64,000 nucleotides of DNA, from contig NZ_JARXIA010000009.1 in assembly GCF_031127875.1 (NCBI RefSeq), positions 186,001-250,000 of the forward strand, written 5' to 3'. The position numbers were made by a program, and so were the translations under genes. The notes below the pieces were generated by a model that saw only the letters and a program-made list of their open reading frames with translations, was not told the DNA's origin and ran no database searches. This document shows, in pieces, positions 5,903 to 62,356 of the stretch. Numbering within the stretch: position 1 is the stretch's first letter; the number at the start of each line of letters is the position of its first letter. This DNA comes from Pelagicoccus sp. SDUM812005. Lineage in GTDB: Bacteria; Verrucomicrobiota; Verrucomicrobiia; Opitutales; Opitutaceae.

Positions 5903-6511
5903 ATGACAGCATTTTTCCAGGAGAGCTTCATGCCGATATGGAATGCGGGCGGCACGCTTATGTATCCACTTGTTGGATTGGCTATGCTCATATTCTTCAC
6001 CGGCATGGAAATTGTCGTGTATCTCAACGAGTTGCGCGGCAAGCCTGCCAGCGACAAGACGATCGAAGATTGGATCGAGACGCCGAGCCATGCCAGCGGA
6101 GAGATCCAAAGCATGATCGAGTACGGCAAGGCGGCTTTGCCGGACCAGAGGGACGTGATCAATCGCTTTAGCGAGATCCGGAACGAGCACATCGAGCGCA
6201 TCGACCGGCGACGTACGATGCTTGCGGTCTTCGTGGGCGCGGCTCCGTTGACGGGGCTATTGGGAACGGTGATCGGTATGCTGAGCACTTTTAAGGGGCT
6301 CGCCATCAGTTCGGGCGGTCAGACGGTCAACATGGTCGCGGACGGAATTTCCGAAGCGCTCATTACGACTCAGCTCGGCCTGGTGATCGCGATCCCGGGC
6401 TATGTGCTGATGATGCTGATCGAGAAACGTCAGAATGCTTTGGATACGTTGATAACTCGTATCGAAGCGTGTGTCGCGCGAAAGGCGCGGGAAGCAAATT
6501 GGGAGATTTAG
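5903..6511 (+). CDS. exbB: ExbB-type biopolymer transport protein
   Basis: A 202-residue protein from the ATG at 5903 (MTAFFQESF); upstream in-frame codons offer only a TTG. It has an N-terminal helix (about 15-35) and a cytoplasmic loop. Two further helices carry the family signature: PLTGLLGTVIGMLSTF and GISEALITTQLGLVIAIPGYVLMMLI. It should form the pentameric inner-membrane proton channel with ExbD and drive TonB. The tight spacing (25 nt after the TtpC-like gene, 6 nt before exbD) shows a single operon. Confidence 0.93.
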   Translation: MTAFFQESFMPIWNAGGTLMYPLVGLAMLIFFTGMEIVVYLNELRGKPASDKTIEDWIETPSHASGEIQSMIEYGKAALPDQRDVINRFSEIRNEHIERIDRRRTMLAVFVGAAPLTGLLGTVIGMLSTFKGLAISSGGQTVNMVADGISEALITTQLGLVIAIPGYVLMMLIEKRQNALDTLITRIEACVARKAREANWEI

Positions 6512-6517
6512 AGAGAG

Positions 6518-6919
6518 ATGAGGAATAGGCGAATGTTCGCGGAAAAGAAGAGCACGGAGGAGATAAATATGTCTCCTCTGATCGACATGGTATTCATCCT
6601 GTTGATCTTCTTCATTGTAACGACGGTTTTCGTGGAGGAAACCGGAGTCGAGGTAAATAAGCCGCAGGCGACTTCTGCTTCGGATCTGGAGAAGAACAGC
6701 ATTTTGATCGCGATCACCGAGAACGGCAACGTGGTCTACGGCGGCAAGGAGATCGGGGTGAGCGGAGTTCGCCCTATTATCCGTCGCCTCTACCAGAAGG
6801 AGAAGATGCCGGTGATCATTCAAGCGGACCGTAAGTCAATTACGGATACGTTGGTACGGGTAATCGACGAAGCCAAGCTGGCGGGGGCGATTTCCGTGAG
6901 TCTCTCCACGGAGGACTAG
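6518..6919 (+). CDS. exbD: ExbD-type biopolymer transport protein
   Basis: A 133-residue protein with a short cytoplasmic N-terminus, then one transmembrane helix beginning [18 protein letters not shown]. Asp23 in this helix corresponds to the essential proton-carrying Asp25 of E. coli ExbD. The periplasmic domain has the expected length and ends shortly after a [21 protein letters not shown] stretch typical of the family. It lies between exbB and tonB. Confidence 0.95.
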
Positions 6920-6930
6920 AGGTAGCTGCA

Positions 6931-7596
6931 ATGGACGAGCATTACCAATCCAAGGGTGTGAAGCGCGGGCCGGCTCGGTTCGCCCGCATCTTTGTATACT
7001 CCGTGCTGCTGGTGGCGGTCATCGTGTTCGTGCTGCCGTTTACGCAGCACTTGTTGAGCGTGAAGGAGCGTCGCACGGTTCGCACGGTCGACGTGGCGTT
7101 GCCTCCACCTCCGCCTCCGCCGCCGGAACCGCCTCCTCCTCCCGAGGAGAAGGTCGAGCAGCCGGCGCCCGAGTTGCAGAGCCAGCCCAAGCCGCTGAGC
7201 CTGAGCCAGCTTCAGCTCGCGATGAATCCCGGGACGGGCAATGCCTTAGGGGCGGCCTTCGGCATGGGGGCCTTCGACGTGGATACCAACGCCTTGGAGG
7301 AGATCCAGACCTTTAGCATGTCCGAGCTCGACGAGAAGCCGCGCTTGGTGCGTCAGCCGCAATGGTCGCCGCCGCGCAACTTGATCGGCCGCGTCAAGGG
7401 GGACATCACCGTAACGGCGCTTTACGAGATCGATCCGGAAGGCCGCGTGGAGTTTCAGCGTTTCGAGCGGATTAGCCACGATATCGCTTCGGACGCTGCC
7501 ATCGAGTACCTTGAGTCCTTGAGGTATACGGTTCCCAAGAAGGATGGGAGGGCGGTGCGGATGCGAGGCCGGACCACATTTACACTAGAACTATAG
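6931..7596 (+). CDS. TonB-family energy transducer
   Basis: A 221-residue protein with one N-terminal helix (about 20-40) and an extreme proline run (PPPPPPPPEPPPPPEE, residues 53-68). A linker leads to a C-terminal TonB domain (about 145-221) ending TTFTLEL. It should couple the ExbB/ExbD proton motor to outer-membrane receptors such as the large TonB-dependent receptor at 41-44 kb, although the operon could serve others. It starts 11 nt after exbD. Confidence 0.92.
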   Translation: MDEHYQSKGVKRGPARFARIFVYSVLLVAVIVFVLPFTQHLLSVKERRTVRTVDVALPPPPPPPPEPPPPPEEKVEQPAPELQSQPKPLSLSQLQLAMNPGTGNALGAAFGMGAFDVDTNALEEIQTFSMSELDEKPRLVRQPQWSPPRNLIGRVKGDITVTALYEIDPEGRVEFQRFERISHDIASDAAIEYLESLRYTVPKKDGRAVRMRGRTTFTLEL

Positions 7597-7621
7597 TAAA
7601 CAATTTTTGGATACGTTTATC

Positions 7622-8983
7622 ATGAAACTTTCGAATTATCTTATTGGGGCGCTTAGCCTCGCGTCTGCAACGCTCTCCGCTCAAACCTATCCCTTGAGCG
7701 AAAACTTCTGGTCCAACCCGGAGTTCAAGGACCGGGTGATGGGGAGCTACGGCGCTCACAGCGAACTCGAGCCGAGGCTCAGCGACGAAGAGGGGCAATT
7801 CTTCAAGACCTTGATCGCGGTCTTGGAGGCGAACTTGGAGCAGGGAGCGATCTTGCTCCAGGAACGGATCACGGGCGAGTCGAGCGCGGCTCTGGACTTC
7901 ATGCTCGGAACGATCCGCATGCAGTTGGGCGAAATGGATAAGGCCGTATCCAGCTACGAGGCAGCGGTGACGAAGTTCCCGAACTTCATGCGGGCCTACA
8001 AGAACTTGGGCATCGCTTACGTGCAGAGCGGTCAGCTGGAAAAGGGCGCCGAGGCGATCATCAAGGGCATGGAGCTCGGGGGAGCGGATGGCTTGTCGTA
8101 CGGATTGCTTGGATACAGCTATCTGAACCAGGAAATGTACTCTTCCGCTTTGAATGCCTATAGCTTGGCGATCGCCTTCCAACCGAACTCCAAGGACTGG
8201 AAGCTCGGCAAGATCCGCTGCTTGATGGAGCTGGAAGCCTTTGGCGAAGCGGCGGGCTTGGTCGCGGAGCTGATTGCCGAGGATTCGGCGAACCATGAGC
8301 TCTACTTGCACCAGGCGAACATTTCTTTGGCCAAGGACAATATTGAGGCGGCCTTGGCGAACCTCGAGATTTCCCGTCGCTTGGGTGGCGGGGACGAGGG
8401 CAGCTTGTTCCTGCTGGCCGACATCTATGCGAATCGCGCCATGTATGCGCTCGCGATCGACGCTTACGAGGACGCCCTTGCGGCGACCCAGGTCAAGGCC
8501 GGACGATTCAAGAGCCTGACTCGCGCCATCTCGTCTTTCATCGAAAACCAAGCGTGGGAGGAGGCCTTGCGCCTCAATCGCGTTGCGGTGGAGGGGCTCG
8601 GCTCCGAGCTGGACGAGGAGCAGCGACTCGCCTTGCTGAACCTCAAGGCCGAGATTGAGCTGGGCGCCAACGATAGCGATTCTGCGGCGGCGACGCTTGC
8701 GAAGATCATCGAGGCGGATCCGATGAACGGCCGCGCCATTGTTTTGCTGGCGAAGCACTCGTGGAAGAAGAAGGACTACGAAGAGGCGGCGTTTCTCTAT
8801 CAGCGAGCGGAGAACATCGAGACGGTGGCCCCGCAGGCCTTCTTGCAGTACGGTCAGATGCTGGTGGAGCAGAAGGAGTACGTGGAGGCGGCCAAGAAGC
8901 TGCGTCGCTCTTTGGATTTGAACTACGAGTCGAATGTTGCGGACTTCCTGCGAGCGGTGGAAGAGGCCGCTTCGCGCAGCTAG
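7622..8983 (+). CDS. Secreted TPR-repeat protein of the TonB operon
   Basis: A 453-residue protein from the ATG at 7622, which directly precedes a signal peptide (cleavage after ATLSAQ). Most of the rest consists of tetratricopeptide-like helix pairs, for example KAVSSYEAAVTKFPNFMRAYKNLG around residues 115-140, with further copies to the C-terminus. A TPR protein at this place is a regular member of DUF3450/TonB2-type operons and probably scaffolds periplasmic contacts of the complex. Its function is not established. It is the last gene of the operon. Confidence 0.88.
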   Translation: MKLSNYLIGALSLASATLSAQTYPLSENFWSNPEFKDRVMGSYGAHSELEPRLSDEEGQFFKTLIAVLEANLEQGAILLQERITGESSAALDFMLGTIRMQLGEMDKAVSSYEAAVTKFPNFMRAYKNLGIAYVQSGQLEKGAEAIIKGMELGGADGLSYGLLGYSYLNQEMYSSALNAYSLAIAFQPNSKDWKLGKIRCLMELEAFGEAAGLVAELIAEDSANHELYLHQANISLAKDNIEAALANLEISRRLGGGDEGSLFLLADIYANRAMYALAIDAYEDALAATQVKAGRFKSLTRAISSFIENQAWEEALRLNRVAVEGLGSELDEEQRLALLNLKAEIELGANDSDSAAATLAKIIEADPMNGRAIVLLAKHSWKKKDYEEAAFLYQRAENIETVAPQAFLQYGQMLVEQKEYVEAAKKLRRSLDLNYESNVADFLRAVEEAASRS

Positions 8984-9038: not shown

Positions 9039-9953
9039 TTATTTTTTGCTGCGTTCGAACTTTTCCGATTTCCGGTAGGCGGAGGGGCTGGTTCCCAGTT
9101 GCTTCTTGAAGCTGCGGCTGAAGGCGGCGAGCGACTCGTAGCCGCAGTCGAGGGCGATCTGGGTAAGGGAGTCGTCGGCGTGGACGAGCAGCTTTACCGC
9201 TCGGTTGATCTTGTAGTGGACGAGGTAGCTGCCGAGGCTGATGCCGGTCAGGACCTTGAAGCGCTTGCGCAGGTGGCTTTCGGAGAGCGAAAGGGCGGCG
9301 GCGATTTGGCTGATGCTGATGTTTTCCTCCAGCCTCCTTTCGAGCAGGCCGTTGATGCGGTCGACGAGCGCGTATCCGGTCGTTGGGTACGACGGGGAAG
9401 CTATCAGTTCGCGGGATCGGTTGAGCGAATAGGCCCGTAGCTTGTTGAGCAAGCCGGAGGCGGCGAAAGTGGTCATGTCGAGGGTCGCTTCGTCGAGCGT
9501 TTCGCGCCGAGCGTAGCGGGCGGCGATTTCCACCGCGTCGTCGCAGAGCTCGCGGCTGAGGGGGATGGGGGTGTTGGCGAAAACGTCGAAGGGCTTGGGG
9601 TTGCGCGTTTCGAAGGTGAGGAACAGCCAGTTCATGCGCTCGTCTTGAACCTCCATGTAGAAGTGGAACTGGTAGGGCTTGACGAGGAAGGCGTCGCCGG
9701 GGCGCAGGTGGAAGATGCGTCCGTCCACGTTGATGGCGCCTTCGGTTTCGAAGCAGAGCATGAGGACGAAGCGGTGGTGCGGGCGGCTTTCGAAGGTGCG
9801 TCGCTGCAGCTCCTGCTTTCGGGTGCGGTGGAAGAGCACGATGTTGTCCACGTGGCAGAGGTTGCGGGCCTTGAGGCCGTGGAAGTAGTCGTCCGGCGGC
9901 TGGAGTCCGAGGGCGTGGAGTTTGTGGGCAGCTGAGGTAAAGGGGCTCTGCAT
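9039..9953 (-). CDS. AraC-family transcriptional regulator
   Basis: A 304-residue protein from the ATG at 9951-9953 (MQSPFTSAAHK); the open frame upstream runs into the divergent promoter and looks non-coding. The N-terminal half has a cupin-like sensing fold (EGAINVDGRIFHLRPGDAFLVKPYQFH). The C-terminal 100 residues carry two helix-turn-helix motifs with the family signature IALDCGYESLAAFSRSFKKQLGTSPSAYRK. It is divergent from the nagB-type operon, so it most likely controls N-acetylglucosamine use, with an amino sugar as plausible effector (inference). Confidence 0.92.
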   Translation of the reverse strand: MQSPFTSAAHKLHALGLQPPDDYFHGLKARNLCHVDNIVLFHRTRKQELQRRTFESRPHHRFVLMLCFETEGAINVDGRIFHLRPGDAFLVKPYQFHFYMEVQDERMNWLFLTFETRNPKPFDVFANTPIPLSRELCDDAVEIAARYARRETLDEATLDMTTFAASGLLNKLRAYSLNRSRELIASPSYPTTGYALVDRINGLLERRLEENISISQIAAALSLSESHLRKRFKVLTGISLGSYLVHYKINRAVKLLVHADDSLTQIALDCGYESLAAFSRSFKKQLGTSPSAYRKSEKFERSKK

Positions 9954-10073: not shown

Positions 10074-11975
10074 ATGAATGAACGTAGTGGTCAGGAACTG
10101 TACGAACGCATCCCTACCAAAGTTTTCGAGGACGCCCAGCTTGCCGTTGGGCAAGTGGCTCGCGAGCTAGCGGATGCCATCCGAAAGCGCCAGTTCGAGG
10201 GCAATCCGTTCGTGCTCGGTTTGGCGACCGGTTCGACGCCGGTGCCGCTCTATCGCGAGCTGGTCCGGCTGCATCGGGAGGAAGGACTGAGTTTCGCCAA
10301 CGTGACGAGCTTCAACCTGGACGAGTACTTCGGGATCGATAGCCGGCATCCGGAGAGCTATTACCGCTTCATGCGGGAGCAGCTTTTCGATCACATCGAT
10401 ATGCCGGAGGAGCAGATCAACATTCCGCAGGGCTCGGTGGAGCGGGAGGAGGTTTTCGAGGCTTGCCAGGCTTATGAGGAAAAGATCGCAGCTTGCGGCG
10501 GCATCGACGTGCAGATCCTCGGAATCGGCCGCACGGGCCATATTGGCTTCAACGAACCCGGCTCGGGTCCGAACTCCCGCACGCGCTTGGTGACCTTGGA
10601 CCGATTGACGCGCTTGGACGCGGCCCGCGACTTCCAGGGCGAGCACAACGTGCCTCGCTACGCGGTGACTATGGGGGTCGGGACTATCATGGATGCCCGC
10701 AAGGTGTATCTCTTGGCTTGGGGACGCTCGAAGGCGGAGGTGGTGAAAGCCGCGGTGGAGGATGCTCCGGTGGAAAGTCTGCCGGCCAGTTTCCTGCAGG
10801 CCCATAAGGACGTGTCGTTTATTTTGGATACGGCTTCCGCGTCGGAGCTGACTCGCTGCAAGTATCCCTGGCTGGTCGGCTTTCCGGAGTGGACACCGGA
10901 GCTGGTCCGGAAGTCGGTAACCCACCTTTCGCTGAAGTTAGGCAAGCCGCTTTTGAAGCTGGTGGACAAGGATTACCAGGAAAATGGCTTGTCGGAGCTG
11001 GTGACTGAGCAGGGACCGGCCTACGGCTTGAACATTCGTGTCTTCAACGAGGTGCAGCACACCATAACCGGCTGGCCCGGAGGCAAGCCCGACGCGGACG
11101 ACACCTACCGGCCCGAGCGGGCATCGCCTGCGCGGAAGCGAGTGCTGGTTTTGAGCCCGGAGCCGCAGGACGATGTGCTGTCCATGGCGGCCACCCTGAG
11201 CAGGTTGGCGGCGCATGGGCATGAACTCACGGTGGCGTACCTGACGTCGGGAAACCTGGGCGTGCCGGACGAGGAGGCGAATTGGGCAGCGGACTTGATG
11301 TTGGAAGCGGGAGACTCGAGTCTCGCTTCGGAAGTGTTGCAGGAACTCGAGGCGAAGGGAGCCTTTTCGGAGGACTCTCCCAAGCTGAGAAAATTCAAAT
11401 CCTATATCCGTCGCAACGAAGCGCGAGCTTCACTTGAAATGTGTGGGCTTGGGAAGGATTGTATCCGGTTTTTGGATCTCCCGTTCTACGAGAACGGCCG
11501 CTATCGTCGATTCGAGATAGGGGAAGCGGATGTCGCGGCGATGCGGGCGCTTATCCAGGCAGTTAAGCCGCACCAGATTTTCGTGACCGGCGAGGCGGCG
11601 GATCCCAGTTCGGTACAGGCCAAGAGCTTTTCTGTATTCGAGGCAGCGATACGCAGCTTGTCCGAGGAAACATGGTTCGAGGATTGTTACGTCTGGCTGT
11701 ATCGAAGCGACGGGCGCGAGTGGGAGATCCACCAAGTGGAAATGTCGGTGCCCTGCAGTCCGGACGAAGCGAAGGCCAAGGCCCAAGCCATTTACCAGCA
11801 CCGCTCGCAGCGGAGCCAATTGCCTGTGATGAATCCTGAGCAGAGCGAAGCCTGGGAACAGGCGATCCAAAGGAATCGGGAGACGGCGGCGCTTTACGAC
11901 AAGCTAGGCCTTGCGGAGTACGAGGCGATCGAGTGCTTTGTGCGTTGGAATCCTCGCAAAGGCGAGGGGCAGTAG
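10074..11975 (+). CDS. nagB: NagB-type glucosamine-6-phosphate deaminase fused to degenerate PIG-L domain
   Basis: A 633-residue protein. Residues 1-335 are a NagB isomerase/deaminase domain: ATGSTPVPLY, catalytic Asp83 in NLDEYF, and GRTGHIGFNEPGS with His156. It converts glucosamine-6-P to fructose-6-P and ammonia. Residues 355-633 are a PIG-L/LmbE-like domain, the arrangement of Bacteroides BT_0258-type proteins. The metal site of that domain is ruined: the usual HPDD motif reads EPQDD (363-367), and the later HxxH-type position reads DPSSVQ (510-515). The deaminase half looks intact, while the second domain is probably non-catalytic and structural or regulatory. It is the first gene of the operon, 6 nt before a stand-alone PIG-L gene. 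Confidence 0.9.
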   Translation: MNERSGQELYERIPTKVFEDAQLAVGQVARELADAIRKRQFEGNPFVLGLATGSTPVPLYRELVRLHREEGLSFANVTSFNLDEYFGIDSRHPESYYRFMREQLFDHIDMPEEQINIPQGSVEREEVFEACQAYEEKIAACGGIDVQILGIGRTGHIGFNEPGSGPNSRTRLVTLDRLTRLDAARDFQGEHNVPRYAVTMGVGTIMDARKVYLLAWGRSKAEVVKAAVEDAPVESLPASFLQAHKDVSFILDTASASELTRCKYPWLVGFPEWTPELVRKSVTHLSLKLGKPLLKLVDKDYQENGLSELVTEQGPAYGLNIRVFNEVQHTITGWPGGKPDADDTYRPERASPARKRVLVLSPEPQDDVLSMAATLSRLAAHGHELTVAYLTSGNLGVPDEEANWAADLMLEAGDSSLASEVLQELEAKGAFSEDSPKLRKFKSYIRRNEARASLEMCGLGKDCIRFLDLPFYENGRYRRFEIGEADVAAMRALIQAVKPHQIFVTGEAADPSSVQAKSFSVFEAAIRSLSEETWFEDCYVWLYRSDGREWEIHQVEMSVPCSPDEAKAKAQAIYQHRSQRSQLPVMNPEQSEAWEQAIQRNRETAALYDKLGLAEYEAIECFVRWNPRKGEGQ

Positions 11976-11981
11976 ATCGAG

Positions 11982-12818
11982 ATGGAAAAGCATTATATAC
12001 CAGACGGAGTGAGTTTGCAGGCGGCCCAAGCGCGGGTGACGCATATGGGCATCGGCGCTCACCAGGACGATTTGGAAATCTTCGCGTACCACGGGATCGC
12101 GGCTTGTTACCGTTCGGCATCGAACTGGTTCGCAGGGGTGACGGTCACGGATGGTGGCGGCAGCGCCCGAGAGGGTCTGTATCGAGATTATACGGACGAG
12201 CAGATGAAGGAGGTTCGCCATCGCGAGCAAAACCGTGCTGCGAAGATGGGTGGCTATTCCTTCCAGTCGCAGTTAGGGGTGCCGAGCAAGGTTGTGAAGG
12301 ATGCTGAGGCTTCCTCGGCGCTGGTGGACGAGTTGTATGCCCTGCTGGATGCCTGTCGCCCTCACACGCTGTACCTGCACAATCCGGCGGACAAGCACGA
12401 CACGCATATCGCGGTGCTGGCTCGTTCCTTGGAGGCGCTGCGGCGCCTGCCGGCGGAGCGACGTCCGGAGCGCGTCTACGGTTGCGAGGTCTGGCGCGAT
12501 TTGGATTGGTTGGACGATGCGTACAAGATCGCGCTTCCGGTGGACGAACATCCCATCTTGGCTCGGGATCTGGTCGCGGTTTTCGAATCGCAGGTCGCTG
12601 GCGGAAAGGATTACGTAAACGCGACCTTGGGGCGTCGTCATGCGAATGCGACTTTCTATCAATCTCACTCGGTGGACGAGGCGAGCGGTTACACTTTCGC
12701 GATGGATCTCGGTCCGTTGTTGTTGGATGAATCTCTAAGTGTGCAGGATTTTGTACGAGGTCACTTGGATCGGTTTAGAACGGATGTGCTGGAGCGTATC
12801 CAAAAAATGGTGAGGTAG
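11982..12818 (+). CDS. PIG-L family deacetylase
   Basis: A 278-residue protein with an intact PIG-L/LmbE site: GAHQDDLE near residue 25 (zinc His and Asp, catalytic Asp) and the third ligand in HNPADKHDTH near residue 130. The family removes acetyl groups from GlcNAc-containing substrates. Here it sits between nagB and a hexosaminidase gene, so deacetylation of N-acetylglucosamine or a derivative is likely. No nagA-type deacetylase is seen in the operon, and this enzyme may fill that step (inference). It has no signal peptide and is probably cytoplasmic. Confidence 0.88.
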   Translation: MEKHYIPDGVSLQAAQARVTHMGIGAHQDDLEIFAYHGIAACYRSASNWFAGVTVTDGGGSAREGLYRDYTDEQMKEVRHREQNRAAKMGGYSFQSQLGVPSKVVKDAEASSALVDELYALLDACRPHTLYLHNPADKHDTHIAVLARSLEALRRLPAERRPERVYGCEVWRDLDWLDDAYKIALPVDEHPILARDLVAVFESQVAGGKDYVNATLGRRHANATFYQSHSVDEASGYTFAMDLGPLLLDESLSVQDFVRGHLDRFRTDVLERIQKMVR

Positions 12819-12820: not shown

Positions 12821-14836
12821 ATGAAGCTAAGGACGATCTGGAACGTGTGTATGGGGGTGGCTATGCTGGGTGCAATTCAAGGGAGCGAGGGCGGAGTTGC
12901 GGGAGGCGAGGAGGCTTTCTCTCGATTGATGCCGGTACCTCAGGAGCTCGTCGCGGGGGAGGGGCGGTACCGTATCGACAAAACGTTTACGGTGAAGGTG
13001 AGCGGAAATCCGGATGAGCGTATCTACGCGGCGGCGAGCCGCTTTCTTCGTCGCTTGGACCAACGCACTGGGCTCTTCCTGCCGCAGGACTATGTAGAGC
13101 AGGGAGAGGCGTTGGAGGCGGCAGGTTTGGAGATCGTGGTGTCGCGGCCCGGGTCGGTGACCTTGGGCGAAGACGAATCGTACCGGCTTACTGTTGCCGA
13201 GGACAAGGTCCGCCTGGAGGCGGAGACTGACTTGGGGACGATGCATGGTTTGGAGACCTTGCTACAGTTGTTGTCGGCGGACGGGAACGGCTACTATTTT
13301 CCGGGCGCGAGCGTGACGGACTACCCGCGTTTTCCTTGGCGGGGCCTGATGATCGACTCGGCTCGTCATTTCATGCCGATGGACATGATCAAGCGAAACC
13401 TCGACGGGATGGCTGCGGTGAAGATGAATGTCATGCATTGGCATTTGACCGAGGACCAAGGCTTCCGGGCCGAGATCAAGAGCTACCCGCGCTTGCACGA
13501 GTTGGGTTCCGACGGGATGTTTTATACTCAGGAGCAAATGCGGGAGATCGTTGCCTACGCAGCGGATCGGGGAATCCGCGTGTATCCAGAATTTGACGTC
13601 CCCGGGCATGCTACGGCTTGGCTGGTGGGGCATCCCGAGCTGGCAAGTTTGCCGGGTCCTTATGAGATCGAACGCGGCTGGGGCATTTTTGATCCGACTT
13701 TGGATCCGACCAATGAAAAGGTGTACGAGGTCCTAGAAGCTGTGTTTACGGAAATGGCGGCGATTTTTCCCGATGAGTATTTCCATATCGGCGGCGACGA
13801 AAACGAGGGGCATCACTGGGATAAGGCAGAGCACATCCAAGCGTTTATGAAGGAACGCGGAATCGCCGACAACCACCAGCTGCAGAGTTTCTTCAACAAG
13901 CGACTCCTGGTGATCCTCGAAAAGCTCGGGAAGAAGATGGTCGGGTGGGACGAAATCCTGCAGCCCGGGATGCCGACCGATATAATGATCCATTCCTGGC
14001 GAGGGCGGGAGTCGATGGTGGCGGCTGCGAAGGACGGTTATGCCAGTATCCTTTCGAACGGTTACTATATCGACTTGATGCAGCCTGCGAGCGAGCACTA
14101 CAGGGTGGATCCCTTGCCTGCGGATATCGACTTGAGCGAGGACGAGAGAGCTCGGGTTTTTGGCGGGGAGGCTACCATGTGGAGCGAGCATGTGACGGTG
14201 GAAACGGTTGATTCGAGAATCTGGCCGCGTACCGCGGCGATCGCCGAGCGGCTTTGGTCGGACGCGTCGGTTCGGGACGTGGAGGATATGTATCGAAGGT
14301 TGGATACGATCGCGCTGCAGCTCGAGGAGCACGGACTGACCCATCTGAAAAATCGGGAGATGATGATGCGTCGCTTGGCGAACGGTTACGATACGGAGCC
14401 GCTGCGGGTTTTGGCCGATGTGGTGGAGCCTTTAAAGATCTATCGTCGAAACGCTGACCTGAGCTACCGGTCGTTTTCGCCTTACACGTTGTTGCCGGAC
14501 GTGGCGGTGGCGGATGCCAAGGACGCTCGTCGCTTTAGGTCGCAAGTCACCGCGTATCTGGAAACTGGGCACGCATCGGACAAGCAGGCTGTGCAAGGCA
14601 TGCTGGAGCGGTGGGTGGCCAACCACGATGGTTTCGTTCGCTTGGCCGATCGCTCGCCTGCCTTGCGGGAAGCGCTGCCGCTTTCGGAAGCATTGCGCGA
14701 CCTTGCTGCGCTCGGGTTAGCCTCCTTGCGAGGTGAACTGGTGGAGGCGAAGGCGGTCCTTGCCCGAGCTCGGGAGCCGGTTGCCAAGGTGGAGCTGCAG
14801 GTGGTCGATGCTGTCGAGCGCTTGCTGGCTCCTTAG
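12821..14836 (+). CDS. Secreted beta-N-acetylhexosaminidase, GH20
   Basis: A 671-residue protein with an N-terminal signal sequence, an N-terminal GH20b-like domain (about 35-160), and a (beta/alpha)8 GH20 domain. The domain shows MHWHLTEDQGFR, YPEFDVPGHATAW and the catalytic pair Asp326-Glu327 in HIGGDENEG. It should release terminal GlcNAc from chitooligosaccharides or glycans outside the cytoplasm, feeding the symporter encoded next. It begins 2 nt after the PIG-L stop. The C-terminal 150 residues are helical and unassigned. Confidence 0.95.
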   Translation: MKLRTIWNVCMGVAMLGAIQGSEGGVAGGEEAFSRLMPVPQELVAGEGRYRIDKTFTVKVSGNPDERIYAAASRFLRRLDQRTGLFLPQDYVEQGEALEAAGLEIVVSRPGSVTLGEDESYRLTVAEDKVRLEAETDLGTMHGLETLLQLLSADGNGYYFPGASVTDYPRFPWRGLMIDSARHFMPMDMIKRNLDGMAAVKMNVMHWHLTEDQGFRAEIKSYPRLHELGSDGMFYTQEQMREIVAYAADRGIRVYPEFDVPGHATAWLVGHPELASLPGPYEIERGWGIFDPTLDPTNEKVYEVLEAVFTEMAAIFPDEYFHIGGDENEGHHWDKAEHIQAFMKERGIADNHQLQSFFNKRLLVILEKLGKKMVGWDEILQPGMPTDIMIHSWRGRESMVAAAKDGYASILSNGYYIDLMQPASEHYRVDPLPADIDLSEDERARVFGGEATMWSEHVTVETVDSRIWPRTAAIAERLWSDASVRDVEDMYRRLDTIALQLEEHGLTHLKNREMMMRRLANGYDTEPLRVLADVVEPLKIYRRNADLSYRSFSPYTLLPDVAVADAKDARRFRSQVTAYLETGHASDKQAVQGMLERWVANHDGFVRLADRSPALREALPLSEALRDLAALGLASLRGELVEAKAVLARAREPVAKVELQVVDAVERLLAP

Positions 14837-16661: not shown

Positions 16662-16668
16662 ATACGTG

Positions 16669-17920: not shown

Positions 17921-18319
17921 GTGCCTTTTCGTCTTTTGTCCAAAGCTATTTGCGTGGCGGTCTGTTTGAGTCTCTCGAACAGTTTGCTGCTGTTTGGACA
18001 GCTCATGGCTTGGTCGAGCATGGCCAAGGAGCGATTGGACGAGCGCGGCGTTGGTACCGCCTTGATTTCGAGTATCGAAGGGGTGGACCTCTGCGAGGTC
18101 TGTCTGGTGGTCCGCGAGGAAAACCGGAAGCAGAGCGAAAGCGGCACGCTCAAGGAGTCTGCGGGTATCGCCAAGCTGCTCGTGATGTCGGACGATGCGG
18201 ATGCGGTCTACGCTTTGCCGCCGAAGTTCGAGTTTAGCTGTATCCGCGGTGAGGATACAGGAAAGTTTGCAAGTCGTTCCGAGGAAGTGGCGAAGCCGCC
18301 TCCGAGAATTGAAGTATAG
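17921..18319 (+). CDS. Small secreted/membrane protein with Cys pair next to His/Met-rich outer-membrane protein
   Basis: About 132 residues from GTG 17921; a TTG at 17885 in the same frame would add 12. An AAGGAGG lies at 17891-17897, further from 17921 than usual, so the start is uncertain. There is a hydrophobic signal-like helix, then DLCEVCLVV (CxxC) and a second single Cys in EFSCIRG. I do not recognise the family; it is somewhat like the small DUF2946-type proteins found near copper genes. The neighbour encodes a Met/His-rich outer-membrane protein, so a metal-related role is plausible but unproven. An 8-bp inverted repeat lies near its 3' end. Confidence 0.6.
   Translation: MPFRLLSKAICVAVCLSLSNSLLLFGQLMAWSSMAKERLDERGVGTALISSIEGVDLCEVCLVVREENRKQSESGTLKESAGIAKLLVMSDDADAVYALPPKFEFSCIRGEDTGKFASRSEEVAKPPPRIEV
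18238..18260. repeat. Inverted pair of the GTATCC/GGATAC motif
   Basis: CTGTATCC (18238-18245), a 7-nt spacer and GGATACAG (18253-18260) form a perfect 8-bp inverted repeat inside the 3' part of the small Cys-pair gene. Both arms are copies of the window-wide GGATAC motif. It is not followed by a T-run, so it is not an ordinary terminator. Confidence 0.75.
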
Positions 18320-19462: not shown

Positions 19463-19483
19463 CTCTTGCGTATCCAAGTTTTC

Positions 19484-19519
19484 AGGAGGGGCCTCGGGGA
19501 ATCGAGGCTCCTCTTTTTT
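19484..19519 (+). terminator. Rho-independent terminator after the His/Met-rich protein gene
   Basis: An imperfect stem, AGGAG-GGG-CCTCG with CGAGG-CTCCT, lies 22 nt past the stop and is followed by CTTTTTTG. The A-run on the other side of the stem could also let it serve the convergent minus-strand gene that ends at 19529. Confidence 0.75.
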
Positions 19520-21524: not shown

Positions 21525-21680
21525 GGGAAAGCGAGCGTTGGCCCGCTAAGTATCGGAAGGTACGGGATTTAGTTGAGGAGGAAGGGGGGAGATTGTCTTT
21601 TTGGCATTATCGTCGAGCGTCTGCTGTATCTATCTTCGAAATACAGTTTTCTCAAGCGATGCCGATTGGATTAACGAAAT

Positions 21681-37667: not shown

Positions 37668-37677
37668 CCTGTATCCA

Positions 37678-47677: not shown

Positions 47678-47706
47678 GGCCTACCCTGCAGAGGGTAGGC
47701 CTTTTT
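47678..47706 (+). terminator. Rho-independent terminator of the VPDSG gene
   Basis: GGCCTACCCT-GCAG-AGGGTAGGCC, a perfect 10-bp stem with a 4-nt loop, followed by TTTTTG. It lies 28 nt past the stop. Confidence 0.95.
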
Positions 47707-47803
47707 GTGTTTAGGATGTGAATACGATGAGGGGGGGGTAGGTGACTTCGGAGCTAGCGAATTGGCTTGGTTTTCGGAGGGAAAGTGATTTCTGGAGTGG
47801 GTC

Positions 47804-50028: not shown

Positions 50029-50152
50029 TGTTATTCCTGGGTTGAGCGACGCCGCCCACGAGAGGGGGCTGGAGGGGCTGTGGGCTATTGGATAATGGGT
50101 GTGACTTGCACGTGGGGGAGCGATTCGTGGACTCACGTTAGCGCTCTTGTAT

Positions 50153-53061: not shown

Positions 53062-54138
53062 CTAGCGGCAGGCGCTTTCGGCGGCGGCGAGCTCGAGTTT
53101 GGGGAGGGATTCCCCTTCGATCCAAGTGCCTTCGACCTTGGTCACGGTCGGGTAGTCGGGCAGGCCGATTTGGTTTTGCTGGAGCTGGCCGGCTAGGATT
53201 TCGACGGCGAGCTCCCCGACGCGTGTGCAATTGTTGAATACGCCCGCGTGGGCTCCGTCCTTGGTTTCGGGACAGATGTCGATGTAGGCGAAGTCGTCGG
53301 GCGTTTGGATTTGCAGGAGCTCGAAGGCGGATTTGACGAATTCCGAGTAGCTGATGATGACTTCGGGCTGGTGCTTGAGGCGCCATTGCTCGAATTCGGT
53401 AACGGGCACGCCGGAGTTGGTGCCGGGAGCGTTGTGGAAAAACTTTAGCGGGATGCGGTCCTCTTCGGGGACTTGCAGCTGGCTGGTGAGGAAGCCGGCG
53501 GACCAGGCGTGGTTGACGTAGGAGTCGTACCAGTGCGGCAGGACGAAGCCGATGCGCTTGTAGCCGGCGTTGAGGGCCTTGCGAAAGGCGAGCTGCACGA
53601 TGGCCCGCTGGTCGTTGGAGATGGTGTGGACGTGCAGCTGGGTGGGCACGAAGTCGATCTTGACCGAACTGAACTTGCTCCAGTCGAGAGCTGGCTCTTC
53701 GTCGGAGCCGGGCATGTGGGAGGCCACGATCAGGCCGCGGATGCCGCGGTTGAGCAGGATCTCGTTGGTGCGCTGGTGGCTGACGCCTGGTTGGCCGAGC
53801 CAGAAGTGGTCGATCTTGTAGCCGAGCTCCTTGGCGCGAGCGACGGCTCCTTCGTAGAAGCTCAGGTGGGTGTTGGTGGATTTCCATCCCCATTCGGTAT
53901 CCCAGTTCGTCACGTAGGCGAGCGGGGCGGCCTGCTGCTTGGGGGAGGCGTTGCGGCGGTAGGCGACCAGGGCCCCGAGAGCGGGGTCGGGCTGGTAGCC
54001 CATCTCCTTGGCGAGAGCTTGAATCTTCTTGGTGGTGGCTTCCGGCAGGCGCGGGTGGTTGCGCAGGGCCATGGAGATGGTGGTGGGGTGATAGCCGGCT
54101 TTCTTGGCTATGTCAGCAAGGGTAATGCGTCTGTTCAT
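53062..54138 (-). CDS. LacI-family transcriptional regulator
   Basis: A 358-residue protein. The N-terminal helix-turn-helix and hinge (ITLADIAKKAGYHPTTISMALRNHPRLPEATTKKIQALAKEMGY) are typical of LacI. The rest is a periplasmic-binding-protein-like effector domain. Basic residues and the NHPRLPEAT stretch resemble the Opitutae regulators of carbohydrate use. It lies downstream of a Gfo/Idh dehydrogenase gene, so it may regulate that gene; the effector sugar is unknown. Two operator-like repeats lie just upstream. Confidence 0.93.
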   Translation of the reverse strand: MNRRITLADIAKKAGYHPTTISMALRNHPRLPEATTKKIQALAKEMGYQPDPALGALVAYRRNASPKQQAAPLAYVTNWDTEWGWKSTNTHLSFYEGAVARAKELGYKIDHFWLGQPGVSHQRTNEILLNRGIRGLIVASHMPGSDEEPALDWSKFSSVKIDFVPTQLHVHTISNDQRAIVQLAFRKALNAGYKRIGFVLPHWYDSYVNHAWSAGFLTSQLQVPEEDRIPLKFFHNAPGTNSGVPVTEFEQWRLKHQPEVIISYSEFVKSAFELLQIQTPDDFAYIDICPETKDGAHAGVFNNCTRVGELAVEILAGQLQQNQIGLPDYPTVTKVEGTWIEGESLPKLELAAAESACR

Positions 54139-54261: not shown

Positions 54262-55287
54262 CTATTGGTTTTCGATCTTCAGGTTTGGGTCTACCTCGCT
54301 GGGGGAGATGGCTTTTCCGTCGGCGAGGTGGGAGGCGAAGATGGCGAGGGCGATGCGGAGGGCTTCGATGGCGTTGGTGACGGAGTAGAGAGGCTCGGTT
54401 CCGGTTTGCATGGCATGCACGAGTTCGTCGACCATGCCGCGCGGGTAGGCGGGGCCCCAGTCGTATTTGTCCTGTTCGAAGAGTTCCTTGAAGCCGGTGT
54501 AGAGTTTGCTGGTGTCGGGCAAGTAGACTTTTTCTATGTCGTTTCCGATGAGGATGCGGGCGTTTTCGAACACGAGGTCGAACTGGAAGATGTAGTACTT
54601 CTTTCGATACGCAGACACGAAGGCGACGGTTCCGTTTGAGAATTGGATGGTAGCTTGGCCGCCTTGGTCGCTGATTTCTTGCGAGCTGTCGTATCCGTTT
54701 TCCAACTTCCCGCTGACGGCTAGGGCTTCTCCGCACCAGTAGCGCAGCACGTCGAAGGCGTGGGTGCCGGTGTGGATCAGCTGGTGGGTCATGTGGCAGG
54801 TTACGGACTGGAGCTTGCCGTAGGTTTGCTTGTCGATGAGCTCTTTGATCTTTCGGTAGGGCGGGCGAGCTCGTCGTGGATAGTCAACTACAGCGGCTGC
54901 TTGGTGCTTTTGGAGGGCGGCTTGGATGGCTTCGCCGTCGGCGATGGAGCAACCGAGGGCTTTCTCCAGCCAGAGTCCTTTGGCTCCGGCTTCGAGGGCG
55001 GCTCGGGCCATGTCGAGGCGTTGGGGGGCGTAGGCGCAGATGCTGGCGATATCGATCTTCTCCTTGGCGAAGAGATCGTGGTAGTCGGCGTAGAGGCGTT
55101 TGCTGGGGATGTCCCAGTCTCGGCCAAAGCATTCGAGGGCGTCGGCGTCGATATCGGCTCCGGCGACCAGTTGGATATTGGGGGAGGCGGCGTAGCTTCC
55201 GGCGTGCGTGCACCCGGCGGGGCGCAGGGGGTCTTTTTCGAGGGTGGAGGCGATGCGGCCGGTGCCGATGATGCAGGCGTTCAACAT
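54262..55287 (-). CDS. Gfo/Idh/MocA-family oxidoreductase
   Basis: A 341-residue protein with an N-terminal Rossmann fold (MLNACIIGTGRIASTLEKD, with G-T-G-R-I) and the conserved EKALGCSIADGEAI (the EKP-like lysine motif: ...WLEKALG). The C-terminal dehydrogenase fold follows. The family oxidises or reduces sugar and inositol derivatives with NAD(P). It is upstream of the LacI gene on the same strand, with the operator pair between them. The substrate is unknown. Confidence 0.9.
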   Translation of the reverse strand: MLNACIIGTGRIASTLEKDPLRPAGCTHAGSYAASPNIQLVAGADIDADALECFGRDWDIPSKRLYADYHDLFAKEKIDIASICAYAPQRLDMARAALEAGAKGLWLEKALGCSIADGEAIQAALQKHQAAAVVDYPRRARPPYRKIKELIDKQTYGKLQSVTCHMTHQLIHTGTHAFDVLRYWCGEALAVSGKLENGYDSSQEISDQGGQATIQFSNGTVAFVSAYRKKYYIFQFDLVFENARILIGNDIEKVYLPDTSKLYTGFKELFEQDKYDWGPAYPRGMVDELVHAMQTGTEPLYSVTNAIEALRIALAIFASHLADGKAISPSEVDPNLKIENQ

Positions 55288-55396: not shown

Positions 55397-56677
55397 ATGA
55401 ATCCTTATACCTTCAAGAAACTTTCCGCGGCGGCAGCGCTTTTCGGATCTACATCAATCGCTTTCGCAGGCGGTTCCTTCCAGGAAGCTGCGGAGCACCT
55501 CGACCTGGACGGCGACTTCGTCGGTTTCATGGATTTCGACGGGGACGGCCAGGCTATTGGCGAGAAGCTCAACGTGATCTACCAGGACATGGCGCAGGTG
55601 ATTCCTGACATGCCGCCGATCCCGCTCGATTTTCCTGCTGTATTCGAAACCTTGGGATTTGGTTCGGTACGTTCCATGGGAGCGAGCTCTTCCCAGATCG
55701 AGAGCGGGCTGTACCGGAACCGCTCCGTCACTTTGCTGGAGGGGAATCCCGCTGGCTTGTTCAAGATGTACGGGCTCAATCCGATCGGCTTCCGGGCAGC
55801 GGAGATCGCTCCTGCGGACGCGACTTCGGTCTTTTCCGGTCAGATCGATTTGAATGAACTTGTGAATACAGCCAAGGCTCTGGCGAGCCGCGTGATGGGC
55901 CCGATGGGCGAAGGCATGGTGATGCAAGGCTTGTTGCAGCCGATCCCCGGCACGGACGTCACGGCGCAGGAAGCGGTGGCGGCGCTGTCGGGCGGCATGG
56001 ACTTGATCGTGCATCAGAGCATGGAGAACCCGAAGGCCCCTGACATCAAGGTGTGGGTATCGTTGAAGGGGGCGGGCGTTTTGCTGCCGCGCCTCGAGCC
56101 GCTTATCAAGGAGATGGGGTTCCAGTTTGTGGATACGAAGTCTGGCCGGGTAGCGGATCTTTCAGCGCTGATGCAGGATGCTCCCATCGACTTGTTTGTG
56201 GAAGCGCCTGCGGGCACGGATGACCTTTTGATCTACACCGATAAGGAATGGGTTAGCACCTTCGGCGCGGGGAAGTCGGGGCTGACGGGAACGGATGCCT
56301 ACAAGAAAGTGGCGGGACGCCTCCCCAAGGATGCGGCCATGTATGCCTACAGCAGCGGATTCGACACGAAGCAGCTGGAAGGAATCTTGTCTCAAAATCC
56401 GGATACGGCAGCGGTGGCGCCGATGATCGTCAAGGCGGTCGATTCTCTTTTTGGCGGGTTCATTTCTCCAAGCGCTTCGGCGACCTACCGCTCGGGCGAT
56501 GCGTTGATCACGGAAGGCTACGGCGGATTCTCCTACAAGAGCTTGGTGGTGGCTTTGCCAGCGGGCATTGGGGCCGGCATCGGAGCGGGCATCGCTGCGG
56601 AGCAGTCGAAGAAGGCGAACGCCTGGCAGGGGCACGAGGGCCAAGATCACGGGTCCGACCATCCGGCAGCTGAGTAG
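55397..56677 (+). CDS. Secreted hypothetical protein with low-complexity tail
   Basis: A 426-residue protein with a signal peptide (ALFGSTSIAFAGG). It contains no domain I recognise. It shows repeated PM/GM stretches, an alanine/glycine-rich segment near the C-terminus (ALPAGIGAGIGAGIAAEQ) and a His-rich tail (WQGHEGQDHGSDHPAAE). The GAGIGAGIAAE stretch could be a short membrane-active or flexible helix. It lies alone, divergent from the oxidoreductase gene, and a strong terminator follows. The role is unknown. Confidence 0.7.
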   Translation: MNPYTFKKLSAAAALFGSTSIAFAGGSFQEAAEHLDLDGDFVGFMDFDGDGQAIGEKLNVIYQDMAQVIPDMPPIPLDFPAVFETLGFGSVRSMGASSSQIESGLYRNRSVTLLEGNPAGLFKMYGLNPIGFRAAEIAPADATSVFSGQIDLNELVNTAKALASRVMGPMGEGMVMQGLLQPIPGTDVTAQEAVAALSGGMDLIVHQSMENPKAPDIKVWVSLKGAGVLLPRLEPLIKEMGFQFVDTKSGRVADLSALMQDAPIDLFVEAPAGTDDLLIYTDKEWVSTFGAGKSGLTGTDAYKKVAGRLPKDAAMYAYSSGFDTKQLEGILSQNPDTAAVAPMIVKAVDSLFGGFISPSASATYRSGDALITEGYGGFSYKSLVVALPAGIGAGIGAGIAAEQSKKANAWQGHEGQDHGSDHPAAE

Positions 56678-60425: not shown

Positions 60426-60446
60426 CCTCGCTGTTTAGCGGTAGCG

Positions 60447-60478
60447 GACCGGCCTTCTTAGGTTGGGGGGCCGGTCCT
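60447..60478 (+). other. Stem-loop after the EF-hand gene
   Basis: GGACCGGCC / GGCCGGTCC (9-bp perfect stem, 14-nt loop), 21 nt past the EF-hand stop. The following CCTGCTTTGATT is only weakly U-rich, so this is a 3' stem-loop rather than a clear terminator. Confidence 0.55.
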
Positions 60479-60494
60479 GCTTTGATTGAAAACA

Positions 60495-60524
60495 GCCCTC
60501 CAGGACCGCTGTGTCCTGGAGGGC
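60495..60524 (-). terminator. Terminator of the epimerase-amidase gene
   Basis: GCCCTCCAGGAC / GTCCTGGAGGGC (12-bp perfect stem, 6-nt loop), 14 nt past the epimerase-amidase stop on the minus strand. TGTTTTC follows in that direction. Confidence 0.78.
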
Positions 60525-60538
60525 TCAATCGTGTGCGT

Positions 60539-62356
60539 TTAGATTTTGGATACGAGGGCGGGTTTGCAGGTGTCTAGCCCGTGGCGGAGGATTTCGACGA
60601 GGTGGTCCAGGTGCTTGTCGTGCAGGGCGGAGACGGAGAGGGGCGGCAGCTCGTAGGTGATCACGTGCCAGCCGTTTTCCGCGGCCCAGCTGCCGAAGGA
60701 GCCAGGGGTCTGGTAGCCGATGTTTCCCACGAGGGGCAGTCCGGTGCGTTTGGAAAGCCAGTAGCCGAGGGGGCTGTAGCTTGGGTCGTCGATGCAGGCG
60801 AGCGGAGCGTGGAGCGAGAGGATGGTTTTTGGGGCGAGAGCTTGGACGAGATCGATGAGGGCCCGCGTTTCGGGTTCGGACGCGGGAGCGGGGCCGGTCG
60901 AGTGGTTGACGTAGCCGTGGTTGGGTGCCCATTTGGTGGATACGGGAGAGTCTTGCCAGTTGGTGGCGGGGAAGTTGCGATTGAGCTCGACGCCGTTTGC
61001 GTTGCCGCGGGTGCCGCGCAGAGTGCCGTCGGGGTTGGCGCAGAGCACGATGGCGCAGCGCGGCGATGGACGTTCGAGGGAGCGGAGGGCTTTGGAGAGC
61101 AGGGTGGTGGTTTCCGGCTCCTCGCCGTGGATGGCGGCGAAGAGCAGCAGGTCGCATTGGCCGGAGCTGGGGAGGTAGACTTCCAACGGGATGCCGTTGA
61201 CGGATTTTCCGTAGGTGGCATGGCAGGGAGGCGCCTTTGAGCGGTTTGCGATCGGTTGCAGCGAGGGCGGCTTGATTTCCCAGTAGTCGGTTTTGGGATA
61301 GGCTTGCAAACCGTGCGGGGGCACGTCGGGAGCGAAGGCGAGCCGTCCTGAGTTTTCAACTACACCCAGCATGGGGTCGTTGCGGGTGAGCAGGGCTCCG
61401 TCCAGGTCGATCCAGTCGGCGAGAGGCGAGAGCTGGAGGGCGGCGGCGATGCCGAGGCTGCTTTCGATCATGCAACCCAGCTGGACTTTTAGGCCGTGGC
61501 TTTTGGCGGCGGCGATGAGTTGACGGGCGGGGGCGATGCCGCCGGATTTGGCGAGTTTTACGTTGATGCCGTGGAAGCCTTGGGCGCAGTGGGGGAGGTC
61601 GGCGGGGCTGAGGCAAGACTCGTCGGCCACGAGCGGGATGGGACTGTGGCGCTTGAGCCAGGCGGCGTCTTGGGGGGAGGTGGCGCGCGGCATCGGTTGC
61701 TCGATGAATTCGATGGGGCCGAGAAGGGCGAGGCGCTGGATGGCCCGCAAGGCGAGCTCGCGGTTTTCCCAAGATTCGTTGGCATCGATGCGGACGGGCT
61801 TTTCGGGACTGACGCTGCGGAGGGCTTGGAGGGAGCTTTCGTAGTTGCGGGCGTCGACTTTGAGCTTGAGCACGGGGTAGGACCGGGCGTCGAGGACGCG
61901 TTGGGCGATTTCTTCCGGAGTTCCGAGGCCGATGGAGTAGGAGGTGGTGGGCGGCTGTTCCGGGCAGCTGGGGATGTCGAGGAAGTCGGCGAGCGCTTTT
62001 CGAGCGCTCTTGGCGGCGCCGTCGTGCAAGGCGAGGTCGATGGCGGGGACGGCGGCTGGAGCGCGCTTCGCTTGGGAGTGAAGGTACTCGAGGCTTTGGG
62101 CCAGGTCGTGGAAGTTGAGTTGGCTCCAATCGAAGCGGCGGAGGAAGTGGAGGGTGTCGAGCGCTGTTTCGCCGTAGGTAGTCACGGGGGCGGCTTCGCC
62201 GAAGCCGACGGTGCCGGTTTCGTCGCTGAGCTTGAGGAGGATGCAGCTTCGCTGGGAGATTCCCTTGCCGCTGGGTCCGAGGCGGCTGGCGATGGCCCAG
62301 GGTTGCTTAAGTTCGAGGGAGTGCAGGTGGATTTGGCAGCGCAGCATGGGCGGCAT
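60539..62356 (-). CDS. Fused L-Ala-D/L-Glu epimerase and M14 murein-peptide amidase
   Basis: A 605-residue protein. Residues 1-345 are an enolase-superfamily dipeptide epimerase: KLKVDARNY with the base Lys, RIDANESWE, EFIEQPMPR, VADESC, and NVKLAKSGGI with the second Lys. Residues 370-605 are an M14 carboxypeptidase-like domain of the MpaA type: FAAIHGEEPETT with the zinc His and Glu, CANPDGTLRGTRGNANGVELNRNFPATNW, LSLHAP with a zinc His, and VITYELPP with the catalytic Glu. In E. coli these are separate, adjacent genes (ycjG, mpaA) for recycling L-Ala-gamma-D-Glu-mDAP. Here one chain would cut off mDAP and epimerise the remaining dipeptide. It lacks a signal peptide, so it is cytoplasmic. 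Confidence 0.9.
   Translation of the reverse strand: MPPMLRCQIHLHSLELKQPWAIASRLGPSGKGISQRSCILLKLSDETGTVGFGEAAPVTTYGETALDTLHFLRRFDWSQLNFHDLAQSLEYLHSQAKRAPAAVPAIDLALHDGAAKSARKALADFLDIPSCPEQPPTTSYSIGLGTPEEIAQRVLDARSYPVLKLKVDARNYESSLQALRSVSPEKPVRIDANESWENRELALRAIQRLALLGPIEFIEQPMPRATSPQDAAWLKRHSPIPLVADESCLSPADLPHCAQGFHGINVKLAKSGGIAPARQLIAAAKSHGLKVQLGCMIESSLGIAAALQLSPLADWIDLDGALLTRNDPMLGVVENSGRLAFAPDVPPHGLQAYPKTDYWEIKPPSLQPIANRSKAPPCHATYGKSVNGIPLEVYLPSSGQCDLLLFAAIHGEEPETTTLLSKALRSLERPSPRCAIVLCANPDGTLRGTRGNANGVELNRNFPATNWQDSPVSTKWAPNHGYVNHSTGPAPASEPETRALIDLVQALAPKTILSLHAPLACIDDPSYSPLGYWLSKRTGLPLVGNIGYQTPGSFGSWAAENGWHVITYELPPLSVSALHDKHLDHLVEILRHGLDTCKPALVSKI

Follow-up and report, generated by a model that had tools for sequence, protein, structure and literature searches.

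The 64,000-nucleotide stretch considered here (the window; C118:186001-250000 of the 6.65-Mb genome of Pelagicoccus sp. SDUM812005) carries many copies of the nine-nucleotide word TTGGATACG, which the original prediction described as an over-represented motif scattered over genes and gaps on both strands. TTGGATACG is the strong half of a 21-bp dyad, YGTATCCAAAWTTTGGATACR, which can be written GTATY-N9-RATAC, and 68 sites in the window score at least 10 against a position weight matrix (PWM) of this dyad. The dyad character was overlooked in the original prediction, where TTGGATACG, only one half, was described; because the word is half of a dyad, a different kind of reader has to be sought. 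The inverted pair noted there at 18238-18260 is present and is an exact GTATC-N9-GATAC dyad. Three of the intergenic copies it named (7609, 19469 and 37671) are also present, but the fourth, at 27765, consists of the core GGATACG only and falls outside the 68 sites. In one window gene, the nearest named relatives are Pelagicoccus sp. SDUM812002 (88% identity), Verrucomicrobiae bacterium DG1235 (83%) and Pelagicoccus mobilis (82%), and retention of GTA/TAC is given below for named relatives of the window region. Scores are PWM scores, dyads are undirected, and the last seven entries are strong halves from the window count.

222..242, undirected dyad site, score 17.7
1153..1173, undirected dyad site, score 16.1
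3414..3434, undirected dyad site, intergenic, score 17.8
4459..4479, undirected dyad site, score 13.2
5844..5864, undirected dyad site, score 11.8
5961..5981, undirected dyad site, intergenic, score 11.3
6428..6448, undirected dyad site with TTGGATACG half, score 10.3
6830..6850, undirected dyad site, score 12.9
7595..7615, undirected dyad site, intergenic, after a stop codon, score 16.4, both GTA/TAC kept in the DG1235 alignment
8097..8117, undirected dyad site, score 13.2, kept in DG1235
9371..9391, undirected dyad site, score 15.8, GTA/TAC kept in 3/3 relatives
11460..11480, undirected dyad site, score 12.8
11633..11653, undirected perfect GTATY-N9-RATAC, score 13.9, kept in 2/3 relatives
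12178..12198, undirected dyad site, score 13.4
12795..12815, undirected dyad site with CGTATCCAA half, score 12.7
12971..12991, undirected dyad site, score 13.7, kept in 1/2 relatives
13581..13601, undirected dyad site, score 13.7
14553..14573, undirected dyad site, score 12.8
15590..15610, undirected dyad site, score 10.3, kept in 2/3 relatives
16249..16269, undirected dyad site with TTGGATACG half, score 15.9
16646..16666, undirected dyad site, score 17.9, kept in 2/3 relatives
18239..18259, undirected perfect GTATC-N9-GATAC, the inverted pair named above, score 15.3, not kept in the sole relative aligned
19469..19489, undirected dyad site, intergenic, after a stop codon, score 11.5
19569..19589, undirected dyad site, score 11.5
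20179..20199, undirected dyad site with TTGGATACG half, score 11.2
21625..21645, undirected perfect GTATY-N9-RATAC, intergenic, score 14.7, kept in SDUM812002
22421..22441, undirected dyad site, score 17.4
22841..22861, undirected dyad site with CGTATCCAA half, score 11.8
23181..23201, undirected dyad site, score 13.0
25605..25625, undirected dyad site, score 15.8
25820..25840, undirected dyad site, score 18.1
26840..26860, undirected perfect GTATC-N9-GATAC, score 16.7
28785..28805, undirected dyad site with TTGGATACG half, score 15.4
29818..29838, undirected dyad site, score 12.2
31281..31301, undirected dyad site, score 14.2
31556..31576, undirected dyad site, score 18.1
32029..32049, undirected dyad site, score 12.8
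32608..32628, undirected dyad site, score 15.3
33020..33040, undirected dyad site, score 18.1
33310..33330, undirected dyad site, score 10.4
33895..33915, undirected dyad site, score 17.3
34465..34485, undirected dyad site, score 11.1
35067..35087, undirected dyad site, score 14.4
36383..36403, undirected dyad site at a gene end, score 15.6
37304..37324, undirected dyad site, score 12.5
37670..37690, undirected dyad site between two genes, extending into the second, score 17.1
38726..38746, undirected perfect GTATY-N9-RATAC with TTGGATACG half, score 16.2
39552..39572, undirected dyad site, score 15.3
40267..40287, undirected dyad site, score 12.5
40777..40797, undirected dyad site, score 12.4
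43592..43612, undirected dyad site, score 13.1
44985..45005, undirected dyad site, score 13.6
46392..46412, undirected perfect GTATY-N9-RATAC, score 16.2
47706..47726, undirected dyad site, intergenic, score 15.4
48457..48477, undirected perfect GTATY-N9-RATAC, score 18.4
48765..48785, undirected dyad site with CGTATCCAA half, score 15.7
49258..49278, undirected perfect GTATY-N9-RATAC, score 18.7, the best in the window
49444..49464, undirected dyad site, score 11.8
50148..50168, undirected dyad site at a gene end, score 15.7
50828..50848, undirected perfect GTATY-N9-RATAC, score 15.6
53222..53242, undirected dyad site, score 14.7
54591..54611, undirected dyad site, score 12.2
54690..54710, undirected dyad site, score 11.0
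54872..54892, undirected dyad site, score 10.2
56117..56137, undirected dyad site, score 12.2
60534..60554, undirected dyad site with TTGGATACG half, score 13.9
60924..60944, undirected dyad site, score 10.9
61344..61364, undirected dyad site, score 11.5
10824..10832, plus strand, TTGGATACG strong half, no partner scoring at least 10
14300..14308, plus strand, TTGGATACG strong half, no partner scoring at least 10
24282..24290, plus strand, TTGGATACG strong half, no partner scoring at least 10
24609..24617, plus strand, TTGGATACG strong half, no partner scoring at least 10
24804..24812, plus strand, TTGGATACG strong half, no partner scoring at least 10
36663..36671, plus strand, TTGGATACG strong half, no partner scoring at least 10
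45460..45468, plus strand, TTGGATACG strong half, no partner scoring at least 10

The over-representation of the motif is confirmed. Counted on both strands, the window holds 76 copies of GGATAC/GTATCC (the earlier figure of about 68 was slightly low), 27 of TGGATACG (about 26 before) and 18 of TTGGATACG (about 18 before); zero-order expectations for the latter two, 1.67 and 0.34, agree with the earlier values of about 1.7 and 0.3. By zero-order z-score TTGGATACG is the top-enriched 9-mer and TTTGGATACG the top-enriched 10-mer of the window, and each of the 27 single-substitution variants of TTGGATACG occurs there at most 4 times. The whole genome contains 663 copies of TTGGATACG (379 + 284) against 15 of the reversed word (7 + 8), and all seven congeners searched carry 286-590 copies each, with 11-24 of the reversed word. 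A maximal-order Markov model absorbs the signal within the window because sub-words of the motif are also enriched. In an 850-kb sample of the SDUM812005 genome the excess persists at orders 0-5, with 100 copies observed against 16.9 expected at order 4 and 50.6 at order 5, but is nearly absorbed at order 6 (85.6 expected).

Codon use, protein motifs or copied repeats are hardly credible as the source of the excess. Genes were called with our own codon model (82% coding) in the 850-kb sample and in 1.2 Mb of DG1235, and most copies do lie in genes, with TTGGATACG spread unevenly over the reading frames. Against this, synonymous codon shuffling within genes gives 9.0±2.2 copies (highest of 30 shuffles, 15) where 88 of the 100 observed copies are found, and 18.6±3.9 in DG1235, where 86 of 98 are in genes; the original view that codon use explains the motif poorly is upheld. 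All six frames are used, in addition to intergenic DNA, perfect dyads are spread over the six frames fairly evenly, and 40 spacers inspected look unrelated.

The second arm was first detected without imposed symmetry. Stacking 978 TGGATAC sites from SDUM812005 and DG1235 shows that a further element, GT(A/C)(T/C)(C/T), is conserved 12 bp upstream and is followed by an AT-rich stretch; this element is the mirror image of the half-site. When GTATY-Nk-RATAC was counted in 2.05 Mb of the two genomes, k=9 gave 200 copies (87 in SDUM812005, 113 in DG1235) and k=8 gave 41 (19 and 22), against about 7 at each of the other 23 spacings tested (about 2.5 and 4.7; maximum 15); the reverse inverted and direct arrangements of the arms produced no comparable spacing peak in the same DNA (maximum 21). 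In the minor N8 class RATAC is strongly preceded by TG, which hints at a possible further mode of binding. Among single changes in the arms the outer GT and A are the most important, C is partly tolerated at the A, and the fourth base is tolerant. The fifth bases of the arms show no significant covariation (odds ratio 1.8, p=0.065), and in this the arms are unlike a paired stem. The consensus obtained by expectation maximisation (EM) is YGTATCCAAAWTTTGGATACR, with an AT-rich centre and a matrix that is symmetric by construction; CGTATCCAAAWTTTGGATACG is an example of a dyad-bearing duplex sequence.

Perfect dyads number 619 in the whole SDUM812005 genome against 3 for the control. At matrix scores of at least 11 there are 735 sites/Mb in SDUM812005 and 833 in DG1235, compared with 31 and 58 in simulated DNA (order-2 Markov chain) and 25 and 42 for the reversed matrix, the matrix having been trained on the counted DNA itself. 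In genomes outside the training set, 320 sites/Mb were found in G012 (simulated, 32) and 850 in G020 (simulated, 8; 20 kb only), and two non-carriers, G010 and G029, have 10 and 16. Extrapolated to the whole SDUM812005 genome, the threshold count corresponds to roughly 4,700 sites, and the EM estimate of one per 921 bp to about 7,000. Arms at a fixed distance around a spacer that is free to vary are characteristic of sites for homodimeric DNA-binding proteins, and the dyad is very probably bound as duplex DNA by such a protein, which would require one half to be good and the other to be at least tolerable.

The sites are conserved in position. In a 64.6-kb alignment with DG1235 at 75% identity, 21 of 35 sites retain both GTA/TAC, against 45 of 173 control spacings (p=0.0002). 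Between the window and three named relatives, 17 of 28 site comparisons and 4 of 43 controls retain both; here a site may be scored in more than one relative, and the DG1235 portion is shared with the longer alignment. A genome was counted as a carrier if it had at least 10 perfect dyads/Mb and 5 times the control plus one. By this rule 29 of 76 genomes (SDUM812005 and relatives) are carriers, including 8/8 of the genus; several genomes of the same family that are 99-100% complete have 0-4 dyads. A hand tally of a 193-genome sample of the phylum gave 18 carriers of 34 within the order, which we take to be Opitutales, and 1 of 159 outside it. Because the genomes share ancestry, these counts of carriers cannot be taken as independent. 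The distribution suggests an old trait of the order that has been lost here and there. The lone carrier outside the order (G117; 51 perfect dyads against 3 for the control) may reflect transfer or convergence. In 100- and 61-kb samples (L108-L117) of the non-carriers G010 and G029, GTAT-N11-ATAC is not among the top dyads. Their top dyads include CTGC-N1-GCAG (30 against 5.6 expected) and CGAG-N15-CTCG (25 against 4.5 expected), with z-scores like that of the window dyad but about 5-fold rather than 30-fold enrichment, and non-carriers may have a separate dyad dialect.

Patchy loss across genomes is also what might be seen if a DNA methyltransferase or repair process targeted the dyad and so created or maintained it, as with the highly iterated palindrome HIP1. 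The adenines in both arms could be methylated, and the density of about 1 per kb resembles that discussed for HIP1 and mismatch repair (PMC4390886). A site that is degenerate, interrupted and tolerant at several positions is unlike a methyltransferase target, and this explanation is unlikely.

Placement relative to genes bears on whether the sites are operators of a global transcription regulator. Coding DNA holds 734 (SDUM812005) and 842 (DG1235) sites/Mb against 386 and 421 in divergent intergenic DNA (depletion p=0.005 and 0.0005), while convergent intergenic DNA holds 1220 and 1126 (p=0.03 and 0.11). GTA-N13-TAC peaks in the 50 nucleotides after stop codons, at 98 and 139 per 100 kb, where the remaining bins flanking the stop have 25-63, and control spacings show no post-stop peak; a TAA or TAG stop can supply part of GTA, and 18 sites overlap the stop in this way. 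The dyad does look like an operator, since TATC-N9-GATA is the geometry of lambda operators. HipB of E. coli reads TATCC-N8-GGATA (PMC3376134). Depletion in divergent intergenic DNA, together with the location of most sites inside genes in all frames, makes a global regulator quite improbable.

Sites also avoid each other at short range. Gaps of 21-200 bp between sites number 33 in SDUM812005 (75 expected) and 74 in DG1235 (137 expected), and gaps of 300-1000 bp are in excess in both genomes. Density is nominally higher in DNA that can be aligned with the DG1235 sample (867/Mb) than in the remainder (724/Mb). Ten deserts of more than 6 kb occur in the SDUM812005 contigs. The largest, G000:C23:6253-18525, contains TnsA-, TniB- and TniQ-like genes and a Mu-type transposase, beside HsdM, RhuM and HsdS. 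The surrounding region (L038, G000:C23, 6044-19414) appears as a Tn7-like transposon with TnsA, a Mu-type transposase, TniB and two TniQ, adjoining a type I restriction-modification cluster; this one mobile element examined has 12 kb without dyads scoring at least 11.

The original prediction had also named KOPS-like (FtsK-orienting polar) motifs, and a polar motif guiding FtsK or, like Chi, a recombination nuclease would agree with the leading:lagging split of TTGGATACG, which is 70:30 in SDUM812005 and 77:21 in DG1235. A strand-specific Markov model predicts the same ratio, however (p=0.74 and 0.64), and full sites, oriented by their stronger half, divide 211:203 (p=0.73) and 358:318 (p=0.13). 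No rise of sites toward the terminus was seen, dif itself not having been located. Since full sites lack strand polarity, KOPS and Chi are excluded for practical purposes. In the DG1235 sample (L048-L107), AGTAGTGAGT-type words divide 37:3 by strand and look like a tandem repeat tract.

The chromosome carries a degenerate 21-bp dyad about once per kb, of fixed spacing (9 bp, less often 8), conserved in position and without polarity. The best reading is a predicted homodimer site with a whole-chromosome job, for which a mark of self DNA and a nucleoid organiser are near-equal candidates. Given binding by a homodimer, the job could perhaps be the marking of self DNA, as with the DNA uptake sequences (DUS) and uptake signal sequences (USS) of other bacteria, and the complete explanation, homodimer site and self mark together, is put forward tentatively. 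The predicted homodimer would recognise the dyad in duplex DNA, and a fragment with at least one site would be favoured for uptake or recombination. A further site close by would add nothing, so sites would build up through biased exchange at every place where the sequence permits, until a density of about 1 per kb is reached. Such a mark would explain the density, the repulsion, the tolerance of any frame, the site-by-site maintenance and the absence from the mobile element. DUS and USS are likewise spaced at about 1 kb (PMC7811141), and are conserved above their surroundings and absent from recently acquired genes (PMC2397512). Uptake sequences, named in the original prediction, are one serious candidate, and its interpretation is partly supported.

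A nucleoid organiser, meaning an abundant homodimeric, sequence-specific protein that would occupy the sites along the whole chromosome to fold or insulate it and take no part in uptake, would explain most of the same facts and is a possible, if somewhat doubtful, alternative. It would suit a dyad with an AT-rich centre, the short-range repulsion, the scarcity in divergent intergenic DNA, the lack of polarity and the order-level distribution. Selection acting singly on thousands of dispensable sites is hard to sustain, and sites in DG1235 follow no significant origin-terminus trend, leaning weakly to the origin side (Spearman -0.22, p=0.09; -0.24, p=0.07). No nucleoid protein is known whose specific sites reach about 15- to 25-fold enrichment within genes at a density of one per kb.

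Several observations weigh against a homodimer site that marks self DNA. Seven of the 18 TTGGATACG copies in the window have no partner scoring at least 10, and a recognisable left half is present, beyond chance, in about 154 of 486 TGGATACG copies; a strict dimer model may therefore be too simple. In 313 of the 486, GT is missing at N9 and GTA at N8, yet a weak bias toward the left-half bases and an AT-rich flanking stretch persist; a strong half apparently suffices even when its partner is poor. Consensus sequences of DUS and USS are not known to be palindromic, and close inverted site pairs, such as DUS and USS form at gene ends, were not found, half-site pairs clustering only at the N8/N9 dyad spacing. 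Neisserial DUS are mostly intergenic, unlike the in-gene majority here (PMC2397512). Density has a weak link with low GC: the lowest-GC tenth of 5-kb windows has the fewest sites in both genomes, but GC and density correlate weakly by rank (p=0.04 for SDUM812005, p=0.34 for DG1235). The literature search found no uptake experiments in these bacteria. Of 145 HTH_3 matches in seven genomes, 50 loci of the XRE type were compared and, in this partial comparison, none tracks the sites. ComEC favours neither side, as it is common throughout the group (25 of 26 carriers against 28 of 33 non-carriers among genomes at least 94% complete, p=0.21) and does not separate carriers from non-carriers; one carrier that is 97% complete (G073) lacks it.

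Other candidates were considered in the search for a reader. The SDUM812005 genome has 17 HTH_3 matches, and none of the six XRE loci examined in it co-distributes with sites. A TetR gene with an upstream site (L095) was rejected, with close orthologues only in DG1235 and G005, and among the 45 best of 120 genes with an upstream site and four genes with two sites there is no obvious reader. Tandem dyads as a signal of autoregulation were set aside, since they occur in 3 of 76 genomes at 1-3 each, about chance by estimate, as were DnaA boxes, the 3.5-kb dnaA locus (L001) being without TTGGATACG and having one TGGATAC. PF00437 ATPases are found in 76 of 76 genomes. At G000:C23:83420-90515 about 5 kb separates comEC from a PF00437 (T2SSE/PilB-type) ATPase; G002 and G007 have the same pairing, and this neighbourhood is a plausible competence or pilus locus.

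Concerning the window itself, no tRNA, tmRNA or Rfam family was found in it at gathering scores. Its GC skew is positive throughout 1-64000 (0.11-0.37 per 2 kb), and long, overlapping antisense open reading frames are numerous; an Omp85/POTRA gene adjoins a TamB gene on the minus strand at 21891-27739.

DUS, USS and HIP1 reshape whole genomes, and the origin and upkeep of such motifs are still argued. The motif described here is a highly iterated one with an operator-like dyad, present in some genera and nearly missing from sister genera, and for that reason its reader should be findable by comparing carriers with non-carriers. Two genomes of one genus, G205 with 83 perfect dyads and G157 with 11, form a natural pair for this, and finding the reader would separate accumulation driven by uptake from a structural role. 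Among the matches listed in a search of open-licence PMC papers, no such motif was found for Verrucomicrobia or Opitutaceae. Possibly, Opitutales chromosomes have operators for a single dimeric DNA-binding protein about every kilobase, within genes and by the thousand, each of them maintained individually; these would amount to a sequence-encoded, chromosome-wide scaffold or self mark of a kind undescribed in bacteria.

The dyad belongs to the highly iterated motifs and is not filed as DUS, KOPS, Chi or HIP1. Like the DUS of Neisseriaceae and the USS of Pasteurellaceae, it occurs about once per kb, in genes and at gene ends, and is conserved above its surroundings, and it is absent from the one mobile element examined, as they are from recently acquired DNA; it differs in being 21 bp long, mostly in genes and found in an order of Verrucomicrobiota, in having no inverted terminator pairs, and in being known here from sequence alone. 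HIP1 of cyanobacteria is likewise a highly iterated palindrome at about 1 per kb, low in some lineages, but it is a contiguous, methyltransferase-linked 8-bp palindrome, GCGATCGC, whereas the dyad is interrupted, degenerate and operator-like. SlmA, Noc, MatP and parS sites are palindromic sites of dimeric chromosome proteins, as the dyad may be, but have far fewer copies in restricted domains, unlike thousands of evenly spread dyads. Operators of the XRE (HTH_3) proteins lambda CI/Cro and HipB are few and lie in promoters, unlike the dyad, yet their TATC/GATA arms, set around a 9-bp gap in the lambda consensus, agree with TATY-N9-RATA in arm sequence and spacing. The HipB operator has the same arms around a gap one bp wider, of 10 bp (PMC3376134).

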